In this document: in pieces, positions 12,771 to 16,760 of the stretch | How the letters are laid out: each line of letters begins with the position of its first letter | Position numbering within the stretch: the first letter of the stretch is position 1 | Assembly (NCBI GenBank): GCA_021736475.1 | Contig: JAIPFV010000018.1 | Location: forward strand, 1-37,425 | From: Spirochaetia bacterium | GTDB taxonomy: Bacteria; Spirochaetota; Spirochaetia; DSM-16054; Sediminispirochaetaceae | DNA length: 37,425 nt | Direction of reading: 5' to 3' | Position numbers and translations under genes: made by a program | The notes under the pieces: model-generated | Database searches by the model: none | The model's input: only the letters and a program-made list of their open reading frames with translations | Told to the model about the DNA's origin: nothing

Positions 12771-12794
12771 AAAAACCCGGGCTAAAGGCCCGGG
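12771..12794 (-). terminator. Terminator of the exported-protein operon
   Basis: A perfect 7-bp stem, CCCGGGC (12776-12782) and GCCCGGG (12788-12794), has a 5-base loop and is followed by TTTTT on the minus strand. It closes the four-gene operon whose last stop codon is at 12818. Confidence 0.8.
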
Positions 12795-12817: not shown

Positions 12818-14176
12818 TTATGTGGCTGGTGGAAAATATAATTCAAGCAAGTCTCCATTCAGATCAACTGGTTGATATGTCTGCCAGTTAGCTCCATTAA
12901 TATCCTTGAAACGTATTATCCGGTTGGGACTTCCATAAGCATTATCATCAGCATCATCAGTTAGATAAATATTATCCGCGGTTGTGGCTATAAAACGGGT
13001 AGGCCCGTAAAACTCCCCTGGTTGATCCGCAGTTTCTGAAGATAAATCGACCACTCTTCCAAAAGAACCTACGTACTGGAGATCTCGGGTGAATTTCATT
13101 ATTACATTACCTGAAGAGCCATTGGGATTCGTAAGGTAGAGATGATTATTTTTTACAAGTAAGTCCATATAGCCCAAATTGTAAATGGTAGGCAGATTGC
13201 TCTGGCTCGTATAAGTGGCAATTACCCGCTCTCCGGTGGGGCGCTGCGGGTCATATTTAAATATCGTTGTTTCTCCAACCTGGTTTGCACCGGCTAAATA
13301 GAGTACGCCGTCTTTATCAACGGCAAGTCCGAAGCCAGCGATACCTAATTCTACACTTATTTTACTTTCCAATCCAAGATCAAAGGTTTGTTGAATGTTT
13401 ATGTCGGCTACTTCCGGCATTACATGTATGAGTCCTATGGTTTTGTTGTCAATTATATAATAGAGATCACTGTTCAGATGATCAAAAGCCAGCGCAGTAA
13501 TATTAAGCGCAGTAATATCCGAACCATTGAGATTATTGTCCCAATCTCCTACAAAATCAATTCTCACTAGAGAATTACTTGATTGAGCTATCCATATCTT
13601 CCCCTGGTTATCGATTTCTATATCATACGGTGTGGCTAATCCCAAATCAGAGGTTGCCTTGAAACTGGGTGAGACAGGATTCGTTTCAGTAATTCCCATA
13701 TCATCTATTTGCACAAGGCGACTATTTTGGAAATCCGGAACCAGTATCTTCGTATCCTTCGGGCCCATGGTGAAGGCAAGTTCTGTTTCTTTGCCTTCTA
13801 CCAGATCTGCATAGCGGGTCATTCCCCAGCTGTATACATGGCTGGTAGCTGAGTCCTGGTTGGTCGCTTCCATCTCAAACTTCACATCCTCTCCGGGGGG
13901 AAGCAAAAACTCTACACGGCTGTCCGAGGGAGTAACGGTTACGCTTTGCTGATAATCCTGACCGGTTATGCGTATACTCACTTCAGTTACATCGCTCTGC
14001 AGGCCCATTACGCTCAATTTTGGGTTAACTGAGCCATCGGCCATCTCTGTGGTAAAAGAACAGGCCCCGGCGAGAAGCAGCAGAGAGCCGATTGTACCGA
14101 ATAACAGGGTTCGGGGCGCCTTTTTTTTGCGTATTTGTTTATTTTGCTGTCTATGCAGTGCTTTTGTTAAATACAT
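12818..14176 (-). CDS. Lipoprotein with NHL-like beta-propeller
   Basis: The 452-aa exported lipoprotein has a positively charged N-terminus followed by a hydrophobic segment ending in the lipobox LAGAC, with Cys39 the lipidated residue. After a short beta domain (about 50-135) come repeated blades with the NHL-like pattern of hydrophobic strand, D-x-D/N-x-G and W/Y strand, for example YDIEIDNQGKIWIAQ, FGLAVDKDGVLYLAG and RFIATTADNIYLTDD. Such propellers usually bind protein or polysaccharide rather than catalyse. GGAGG lies 9 bases before the ATG. It is the last gene of a four-gene operon of exported proteins, 14 bases after the FecR-domain gene. I do not know its ligand. Confidence 0.8.
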   Translation of the reverse strand: MYLTKALHRQQNKQIRKKKAPRTLLFGTIGSLLLLAGACSFTTEMADGSVNPKLSVMGLQSDVTEVSIRITGQDYQQSVTVTPSDSRVEFLLPPGEDVKFEMEATNQDSATSHVYSWGMTRYADLVEGKETELAFTMGPKDTKILVPDFQNSRLVQIDDMGITETNPVSPSFKATSDLGLATPYDIEIDNQGKIWIAQSSNSLVRIDFVGDWDNNLNGSDITALNITALAFDHLNSDLYYIIDNKTIGLIHVMPEVADINIQQTFDLGLESKISVELGIAGFGLAVDKDGVLYLAGANQVGETTIFKYDPQRPTGERVIATYTSQSNLPTIYNLGYMDLLVKNNHLYLTNPNGSSGNVIMKFTRDLQYVGSFGRVVDLSSETADQPGEFYGPTRFIATTADNIYLTDDADDNAYGSPNRIIRFKDINGANWQTYQPVDLNGDLLELYFPPAT

Positions 14177-14190
14177 AATTTTATTCCTCC

Positions 14191-14862
14191 TTATTCCCAG
14201 TTGATGTTAAGAATTGCTAGTGAATAGTTGCTCAGCAGAGATCTGCTGCTTTTTACACTACCTCCGCCTCCCGATAAGCTGCTTACTACTTCAAACTGGT
14301 CGTTCAGTAGGGTCTTCTGTGCATTGGAGGGCGCTGAATAGCCGTCGGTGCTGCTCTCTTTTCCCTCGCTTACCCAGCGACTTTGGCCGACCCGGTTGCG
14401 GAATACGACGGTGCCCTCGGTAACCCAAAGGGTGAATCCGTCGAACACAAATCCCGTACCGCGCACAGCCGCCGTTGAAACGGGACTGCGGAGCTTAAAG
14501 TTGTTGCGCAGGCCTTTGCTGGAACGCACGTTTGCCTCAACCTTTCCCACCTCGAGAAACAGGTCGGTGTCTACGCTGTCGCTGTTTTCTACAATCTGCT
14601 CCAGCTGCATTCGGGTCAGAGCTTTTACTTCCAAGGTGCTATTGCCAAGCTCGAGTATCGCCCTCGAGTTGAATCCGGTGGAAATATAGGTTCCCCGGGA
14701 TAAGTTCTGTCCAGAGGCGGCCGGCTGCCACTGGTCCCCCGGCTCTTTTATTTCTACTTTGCCTTTGGTGCTTTGGACTACCGCATCAACGGCAAACAGC
14801 GGGATGGCTGCGGTGAAGAGCAGCAGAATGTTTAAGAATATTAAGGGTTTGTAAGTTCTCAT
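14191..14862 (-). CDS. Exported FecR-domain protein
   Basis: The 223-aa protein has a cleavable signal peptide (hydrophobic 7-24, probable cleavage after FAV or at VDA) and a FecR domain (about 28-165). The domain shows VVQSTKGKVEIK, the GTYISTGFNSRAILELGNSTLEV-like region and the hallmark SPVSTAAVRGTGF near 125-140, followed by WVTEGTVVF. In sigma-regulator systems FecR is a transmembrane anti-sigma factor; this one has no cytoplasmic domain, so it is an entirely exported FecR-fold protein, a form common in spirochaetes. GGAGG precedes the ATG by 9 bases. It lies between the beta-barrel and the propeller lipoprotein in one operon, suggesting an envelope assembly or cell-wall-binding role. 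Confidence 0.85.
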   Translation of the reverse strand: MRTYKPLIFLNILLLFTAAIPLFAVDAVVQSTKGKVEIKEPGDQWQPAASGQNLSRGTYISTGFNSRAILELGNSTLEVKALTRMQLEQIVENSDSVDTDLFLEVGKVEANVRSSKGLRNNFKLRSPVSTAAVRGTGFVFDGFTLWVTEGTVVFRNRVGQSRWVSEGKESSTDGYSAPSNAQKTLLNDQFEVVSSLSGGGGSVKSSRSLLSNYSLAILNINWE

Positions 14863-14880
14863 TGGAATTAACCTCCTACT

Positions 14881-16206
14881 TTAATAGGTAAATGAAATAT
14901 TCAGACGGCCGGCCGCCTCTAATTCGGTTCTGCTGTCTGAAAACGGACTGTCGTCGGTGTAGTTGTTCGGCATGAAGACTCCCCCGCTAAGGGTGATACC
15001 TAAGTCTGAAAAAGGGCGGTATTTCAACCGCAGGTCTGCTTCGCTTCCTAAATACAGCTGGTCCGAAGTAGTGCTGACTCCCGGTTCCGAGATAGCACCG
15101 GTGGTGCTGCGAATAAAGCTCAAGCCACTTAGTTCTATCTGTAGTTCTCCGGCATATACAGAAGAGAGGGGTTTTATCGAGTAAGAAAACTCCCCGACGC
15201 TTAGGTTTCCCGGGCTGGGTGAAAAGACAATACCGAATTGTTCCCTATGGGATAGGGGGATAAAGTGGTTTGAATAATCCGAACCGCTGTACCCGCCATA
15301 ATAGCTGCCCTGTTCCGGGTCGCCGGAAGAGTAGACCCCTGAAAGCTTGAGACGGGAATAGTTGAAATCCTCCATATAATATGTGAGCTCTCCCCCCGCC
15401 AGGTACGCCAAGGTGCTATACGCCCCATGGCCGTAGTTAAAATAACCGTATAAACGATGATACAGGTCTCTGGCCATAGAACCCGCAATACCAAGCCCTA
15501 AGTATTCGGTAAAAATACGGTCGTTCGGGGACAGTAGATCGCTCTCCTGCTGTAAATCCTGTTGCGCAATGATGCTTACACTTACATCCTGTTCCAACAG
15601 CAGCTGCGGGAGAGCAAGCGCAAGTCGCTCAATGGTTTTTGGGGGAGCCGTTGCATATCCGTTGGAGGGGGCCGATAGATGGACGCCAATATCGCTCTGG
15701 GTAAGCAGTATCCGAGAGTTGGGAACAAAAGTGAGGCCGGTATAGCCGGCACCTGCGGAGAAGGTCCCCCACGGGAGTTCGACCTCAATTTCCGATCCAT
15801 CCAAATTGTGATCAAGCACATACCCCGTAAAGTCTGCAAAATTAAATCTTCCAAGGCGATAACTTATTCGTGAAGTGAGAGTCTCTGTTTCAACCGGATG
15901 GGTTCCTGTAAATACAAACTGACTAAGGTCGGCAAAAAAGGACCGGTCAAGGTTGAATTGGTACTTGGCCTCGGTTCTCAGAGAGGCGTTTTCGGAAAAT
16001 CGGGTGTTGAGCCAGATACCGGCCTCAAGGTCTTGTTGATAATCGGCTTCGCCGTCCCACCGCAGTTCGCTGGAGCTGTCTGCAAAACCACCCCAATCAA
16101 AGATTGTCTGGGCTGTAATAGGTTGAGGGCTCATACCGATGAACATAAGAAAAACTGCAATTATAAATAAGCCGGGATGTTGGTTCGTTTTAATAGCTCT
16201 GCTCAT
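14881..16206 (-). CDS. Predicted outer-membrane beta-barrel protein
   Basis: The 441-aa protein has a signal peptide (hydrophobic about 13-30, cleavage near ITAQ) and a mature region built of alternating polar/hydrophobic strands with many Tyr, Gly and Ser residues. It ends in LNISFTY, an aromatic C-terminal strand like the signal read by BamA. I do not recognise a named family. The start is the ATG at 16204-16206, 7 bases after GGAGG, and overlaps the previous stop codon as ATGA, so translation is coupled to the upstream small exported protein. An upstream ATG in the same frame is less likely. A porin or export channel for the operon's other products is possible but not shown. Confidence 0.75.
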   Translation of the reverse strand: MSRAIKTNQHPGLFIIAVFLMFIGMSPQPITAQTIFDWGGFADSSSELRWDGEADYQQDLEAGIWLNTRFSENASLRTEAKYQFNLDRSFFADLSQFVFTGTHPVETETLTSRISYRLGRFNFADFTGYVLDHNLDGSEIEVELPWGTFSAGAGYTGLTFVPNSRILLTQSDIGVHLSAPSNGYATAPPKTIERLALALPQLLLEQDVSVSIIAQQDLQQESDLLSPNDRIFTEYLGLGIAGSMARDLYHRLYGYFNYGHGAYSTLAYLAGGELTYYMEDFNYSRLKLSGVYSSGDPEQGSYYGGYSGSDYSNHFIPLSHREQFGIVFSPSPGNLSVGEFSYSIKPLSSVYAGELQIELSGLSFIRSTTGAISEPGVSTTSDQLYLGSEADLRLKYRPFSDLGITLSGGVFMPNNYTDDSPFSDSRTELEAAGRLNISFTY

Positions 16207-16670
16207 GCCGATTCCTCCTTCCATTCAAGGACTTGTCTGAGAATGAAAAGTACTTCGGAACCCGATAAGCTTCGTCCGGGTAGGGCGCTTCCACGGACGA
16301 AACCGCGATAGTGTGCTTCCCGGGCTGCATAGCGGGGGCCTGGAAATATGCTGTACATAATTCCTCCCGGTATTTCAAAGGCGTGCATGAGTAATTGAGA
16401 GTATTCACCCAGGGTAATAGGCGTATCAGCTGAAATCTGCGGTAAGTTCCACCCTTGGGAATCGAAGCGTTCGGCCGCTATCTGAGGGGAAATATCTTCG
16501 GGAATCTCCCCTGTGGCGGTCTGCACCAAATAAAGTGCCTCTGCAAAAGAAGTTTCTTTCTTTTCAAGCAGTTGATCGATAATCTGGTTCGATTGTGCTG
16601 GCATGAGGCTGAGAGAGAGTCCCAGTAAAAAGAGTATACTTAAAATGATGGTACTATTTTTTTGGGTCAT
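16203..16670 (-). CDS. Small exported protein with SLH-like repeat
   Basis: The 155-aa protein begins with a signal peptide (hydrophobic 8-23, cleavage near MPAQS). The mature part is helical, and about residues 85-140 resemble a divergent SLH-type module: ITLGEYSQLLMHAFEIPGG, a Pro/Gly turn, YRGFVRGSALPG, then SGSEVLFILRQVLEW. SLH modules bind cell-wall polymers in Gram-positives; in spirochaetes related segments occur on exported proteins. The ATG at 16668-16670 is favoured by AAGGAGG 5 bases upstream; a longer open frame to 16730 crosses the promoter and is rejected. It is the first gene of the operon. Confidence 0.7.
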   Translation of the reverse strand: MTQKNSTIILSILFLLGLSLSLMPAQSNQIIDQLLEKKETSFAEALYLVQTATGEIPEDISPQIAAERFDSQGWNLPQISADTPITLGEYSQLLMHAFEIPGGIMYSIFPGPRYAAREAHYRGFVRGSALPGRSLSGSEVLFILRQVLEWKEESA

Positions 16671-16678
16671 GTAATCCT

Positions 16679-16727
16679 CCTTCCTATACATTATTAAAAT
16701 TGTAATGTATAGGAAGGCAGATAACAA
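16679..16727 (-). promoter_or_regulatory. Promoter of the exported-protein operon overlapped by a 14-bp inverted repeat
   Basis: Minus-strand TTGTTA (plus 16722-16727) and TACAAT (plus 16699-16704) are separated by 17 bases. A perfect 14-bp inverted repeat, CCTTCCTATACATT (16679-16692) and its complement (16704-16717) with an 11-base gap, covers the spacer on one side and the predicted transcription start on the other. Its gene-proximal arm also runs into the ribosome binding site. That placement fits a repressor operator; if a start further upstream is used, the RNA would instead fold into a hairpin next to the ribosome binding site. Confidence 0.6.
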
Positions 16728-16734
16728 CATTACT

Positions 16735-16760
16735 GGCCGAATTTTTCTAAAAATTCGGCC
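16735..16760. repeat. 12-bp perfect inverted repeat with 2-base centre
   Basis: GGCCGAATTTTT (16735-16746) and AAAAATTCGGCC (16749-16760) are separated by CT. It lies in the 187-bp gap between the divergent exported-protein operon and the phosphorylase gene. There is no T run outside the stem on either strand, so it is not a typical terminator. It may be an operator or a transcription insulator. Confidence 0.5.

Follow-up and report, generated by a model that had tools for sequence, protein, structure and literature searches.

Organization of the operon

The window, the 37,425-nt stretch of Spirochaetia DNA that we analysed, carries four adjoining genes on its minus strand, here called P1 to P4. 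P1 (16203..16670) encodes an exported protein of 155 amino acids with a predicted SLH fold, P2 (14881..16206) a predicted 18-stranded outer-membrane beta-barrel with an AlgE-like fold, P3 (14191..14862) an exported FecR-domain protein, and P4 (12818..14176) a lipoprotein whose C-terminal region is propeller-like. Signal peptides are visible in P1, P2 and P3, and P4 has the lipobox LAGAC. The longest open reading frame for P2 begins at 16224, but P2 most likely starts at 16206 rather than at this first start codon, since in 92% of 59 relatives the protein begins at Met7; the conserved start gives an ATGA overlap with P1. The gaps between P2 and P3 and between P3 and P4 are 18 and 14 nt, respectively. 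An intrinsic terminator (12776..12794, minus strand) with a stem of seven GC pairs followed by TTTTT and a folding z of -3.6 closes the operon. The preliminary description of this region as four tightly coupled genes for exported proteins, ending in a strong terminator, thus agrees with what we find at the locus.

Two strong hairpins with a fold z of -7.7 occupy the leader upstream of P1 (16670-16760). The first is an inverted repeat (16670..16726, minus strand) with 24-nt arms that are 88% complementary; it overlaps the Shine-Dalgarno sequence and reaches the P1 start codon. The second (16735..16760, minus strand) has perfect 12-nt arms. The repeat was not found elsewhere in the source genome, including upstream of the two paralogous cassettes, and a search upstream of P1 in 106 loci revealed no shared hairpin, which makes these hairpins a local feature. 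They could possibly function as an operator, an attenuator or in translational control.

Predicted structures of the encoded proteins

P1 has no match to any Pfam family, the Pfam SLH model (PF00395) matches none of 53 members of the P1 family at E-values up to 1, and a sequence search of the PDB with P1 gave no meaningful match. The predicted structure (pLDDT 92.7) tells more: the 14 best matches in a fold search of the PDB are all SLH or S-layer structures. The individual E-values are modest (0.017-0.69), and we assign the SLH fold because these matches are unanimous, not because of any single value. As we read the model, the helices form a three-repeat pseudo-trimer. The earlier label "SLH-like" for P1 therefore holds for the predicted structure but finds no support in Pfam. 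The SLH motif of proteins that bind secondary polymers is TRAE; the P1 consensus has not kept it and shows ITLGxxS and LSGE.

The model for P2 has 18 strands (pLDDT 90.9) and supports the earlier view of this protein as a barrel. Its best match in the fold search is AlgE (E-value 4.8e-17, TM 0.67-0.73, 12-13% identity), followed by OmpM1 and the Occ/OprD porins. Among PDB sequences, OmpM1 is the only meaningful match to the P2 profile, and a weak one (E-value 0.0014). In P2, conservation of the long loops (162-195 and 300-340) is similar to that of the strands.

The main rival to the module proposed below builds on these similarities: P1 and P2, as products of two genes, would together correspond to OmpM, holding the outer membrane to the peptidoglycan and passing nutrients or glycans, with the FecR protein and the lipoprotein as accessories and the cyclase described below only regulating the locus. 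The predicted SLH fold of P1, the similarity of P2 to OmpM1 in profile and fold, the usual ATGA overlap between P1 and P2, found in 67 loci, and the finding that OmpM both tethers and conducts (PMC10628300) fit this explanation. However, P1 has not kept the TRAE motif; AlgE is an exporter, yet in an unsystematic look we noticed no recurrent polysaccharide synthesis genes beside the cassette; and the explanation does not account for the FecR and CHASE2 proteins that travel with P1 and P2. We therefore regard a channel and tether of this kind as rather unlikely.

The assignment of P3 as a FecR-domain protein is confirmed by a true Pfam match (31.3 bits, with the cut-off at 24). Beyond the signal peptide, neither an anti-sigma nor a transmembrane part was seen in P3. 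A sequence search of the PDB with P3 gave a weak match only, and a single-sequence search of the genome contigs gave none. The FecR domain brings to mind surface signaling of the FecIRA type, in which the signal passes through a sigma factor. This is very improbable: P3 is wholly exported and has no N-terminal anti-sigma segment, neither a sigma factor gene nor a TonB-dependent transducer was seen among the open reading frames of the window, and P2 matches the 18-stranded AlgE and not a plugged TonB receptor.

P4 has weak matches to NHL, Reg_prop and DUF5074 and to the designed Pizza propellers, and its fold as a propeller, as given in the preliminary description, depends on these matches. The source genome contains one paralogue (contig C87, 35%). 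Across relatives, the fourth gene usually encodes a lipoprotein, but the type of lipoprotein varies. A lipobox pattern is present in 67 of 92 genes downstream of the cassette, compared to 238 of 2926 open reading frames generally, a background that takes in spurious frames. Thus, a lipoprotein is the usual fourth part, whereas the propeller type is not fixed. At one locus (L076:996-3966), three lipoprotein genes of the P4 family follow each other downstream of P3.

Distribution of the cassette among spirochaetes

We sampled 393 genomes of the phylum, 215 of them from the class, as counted from genome handles and kinship labels. P1 is present in 160 and P2 in 184 of the 393 genomes. The preliminary description had raised the possibility that these genes rarely co-occur in other spirochaetes; within the class, P1 and P2 have an identical distribution, being found in the same 109 of 215 genomes. 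Outside the class, P1 occurs in 51 and P2 in 75 genomes, with 43 common to both. Most members of a large family, which we take to be the Treponemataceae (family f3 in our sample), are among the carriers. Around P3 homologs with room upstream (60 loci), P2 adjoins P3 in 58, and P1 lies within 3 kb in 55. The set recurs in over 100 further loci of spirochaetes, and because of this recurrence chance can be excluded as an explanation for the operon; some loci were seen through two collections, so that the locus counts slightly overstate the number of independent cases. About one in two of the class genomes that we sampled carries the cassette, and the unit is real and widely conserved among the spirochaetes of the sample. 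In Candidatus Marispirochaeta associata, two P1-P2-P3 cassettes are arranged in tandem (L143:5287-10630).

The four genes are often accompanied by a gene for a class III cyclase of about 900 amino acids with a CHASE2 domain, commonly located head-to-head upstream of P1. Divergent pairs of the cyclase gene and P1 are found in 51 loci, most of them 40-190 bp apart. A CHASE2 protein is encoded in 108 of the 109 class genomes with P1 and P2, but in only 19 of the 106 class genomes without P1 (Fisher p about 1e-39, uncorrected for shared ancestry). At the level of loci, CHASE2 is near 34 of 45 P3-seeded cassettes with enough flank and absent from the remaining 11, about a quarter. In a comparison of 55 loci, the distances for P1, P2, P3 and the cyclase are correlated with each other (rho 0.55-0.78), correlations that include the effect of common descent. 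In two cyclases that we scanned, the CHASE2 and Guanylate_cyc domains both score far above the cut-off. Two spirochaete cyclases, as we read their sequences, keep residues that we take to be typical of adenylate cyclases.

These findings modify the earlier view of the operon as an envelope assembly of exported proteins. P1, P2 and P3 adjoin in nearly all sampled loci, with a lipoprotein usually next, as that view holds; however, the unit extends beyond the operon, because the CHASE2 cyclase is a recurrent fifth partner, often divergent from P1. Its recurrence points to signaling and not only to a structural assembly. A surface adhesin or structural assembly without a signaling role is accordingly improbable, even though all four products are exported and P3 weakly resembles the models of the Leptospira proteins Lsa33 and LipL45 (39.2 and 25.4 bits, far below the cut-offs of 420 and 350): besides the recurrent pairing with the cyclase, the loops of P2 are conserved like the strands, unlike those of many variable surface adhesins.

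Paralogous cassettes in the source genome

The source genome contains three paralogous cassettes, among them the copy in the window. Another is on contig C70; the third is divided between contigs C40 and C87, which we read as a single operon split at two contig ends. No CHASE2 gene was found in the window. The C40/C87 cassette has an adjacent CHASE2 cyclase gene on C40. A second CHASE2 match in the genome is on C158, where the genes examined around it gave no match to the cassette profiles except the cyclase's own. The window copy would use the C40 cyclase in trans, or its output would be a different one. It may share that cyclase, much as one barrel protein of Sinorhizobium meliloti, NsrA, serves several cyclases, or the link may have been lost. 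The source genome has 12 matches to cNMP-binding domains.

Two other FecR genes were noticed in this genome. On contig C91 (L039:2-3665), a FecR protein is encoded close downstream of a protein with 7TMR-DISM and Guanylate_cyc domains, a second neighborhood of FecR and a cyclase. On contig C2 (L041:5302-8964), the gene for a FecR protein of 752 amino acids directly follows a gene whose product reads as barrel-like.

A proposed envelope-to-cAMP module

CHASE2 cyclases pair with FecR or barrel proteins in other phyla, and for this reason we propose that the cassette and its cyclase are a split-gene relative of these systems of CHASE2 cyclase, FecR protein and outer-membrane barrel, a module that spans the envelope and converts a sensed cue into cAMP. 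We consider this reading somewhat probable. P2 would act in the outer membrane as a receptor or gated channel, with P4 or another lipoprotein as a ligand-binding or assembly partner. P3 would provide the periplasmic link. The SLH-fold protein P1 probably anchors the barrel, either to the cell wall or to P3. An inner-membrane CHASE2-class III cyclase, whose gene is beside the cassette in most relatives, would deliver the output, and the raised cAMP would be read by CRP-type proteins. Gene content, gene order, recurrence and the predicted folds were obtained directly, as was the finding that the cyclase and cNMP-binding proteins are present; from these we infer a physical complex, the direction of signaling, cAMP as the output and the nature of the cue.

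Several observations weigh against the module. The cyclase is absent from the window copy and from 11 of the 45 cassettes with enough flank, and CHASE2 also occurs in the 19 class genomes without P1. Outside the class, the overlap between P1 and P2 is smaller, and common descent contributes to the correlated distances. Furthermore, the P2 profile has no detectable relation to the FecR protein encoded on pSymB of S. meliloti, whose barrel part would be analogous to P2 at best.

More tentatively, the module might be a spirochaete-wide apparatus for signaling from the outer membrane to the cytoplasm. It would relay cues from the surface or the cell wall to a CHASE2 adenylate cyclase by way of the AlgE-like barrel, the exported FecR protein, the lipoprotein and the SLH-fold protein, which is free-standing, and would thereby unite attachment to the wall with sensing in one machine. 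If the module works as proposed, it would link the outer membrane of spirochaetes to cAMP by a defined route, and a signaling architecture of Proteobacteria and Campylobacterota would extend to another phylum.

Comparison with known systems

The preliminary description knew of no named system with this set of proteins. A search of the open-access library for CHASE2 or FecR together with spirochaetes found no description of the cassette in this phylum, but precedents exist: a CHASE2 cyclase accompanies FecR and an outer-membrane protein in Campylobacterota (PMC9239204), and CHASE2 cyclases accompany an outer-membrane barrel in Sinorhizobium (PMC7529298).

In S. meliloti, NsrA and the CHASE2 adenylate cyclases CyaK, CyaD1 and CyaD2 form an experimentally supported pathway (PMC7529298, PMC13001267). 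NsrA is an outer-membrane barrel that is required for signal perception and is paired with CHASE2 cyclases, as P2 appears to be in most relatives. The only FecR protein encoded on pSymB has 1219 amino acids, and its gene overlaps that of a CHASE2 cyclase, for which the profile of the spirochaete cyclases gives a match of 6e-104. Pfam names only FecR and TPR in this protein; its long C-terminal part reads as a barrel. The protein, whose record lists no gene names, would be NsrA and, by analogy, appears to be a fused counterpart of P3 with P2. S. meliloti has FecR, TPR and the barrel-like part in one chain, whereas the spirochaetes have separate genes and, in addition, the SLH-fold protein and the lipoprotein; no TPR was found in P1 to P4.

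The CHASE2 adenylate cyclase clusters of Campylobacterota adjoin a gene for a FecR-domain outer-membrane protein. They also hold a phosphodiesterase and a TPR protein, and no SLH-fold protein is reported in the parts of the source that describe these clusters (PMC9239204). In the BiofilmReg operon of Burkholderia, a CHASE2 sensor kinase is encoded beside a LysM-FecR protein; LysM is a peptidoglycan-binding domain, and this protein may, by analogy, parallel P1 with P3. However, the output there is a histidine kinase with a response regulator, and the operon has no barrel (PMC5192318).

Other similarities concern single components. OmpM of diderm Firmicutes, which is stated to be absent from Gracilicutes (PMC10628300), combines SLH and barrel with a coiled coil in one chain, whereas here two genes with an ATGA overlap are found; the likeness lies in an SLH fold that accompanies a barrel and in the weak sequence match between P2 and OmpM1. 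AlgE of Pseudomonas aeruginosa is the best fold match for P2, but alginate genes were not seen in the spirochaete cassette. Lsa33 and LipL45 of Leptospira have a FecR-like N-terminal region, but P3 scores far below the cut-offs of their models. On our best reading, the core architecture was already known from other phyla, and what differs in the spirochaetes is the addition of an SLH-fold subunit and a lipoprotein and the splitting of the system into separate genes.
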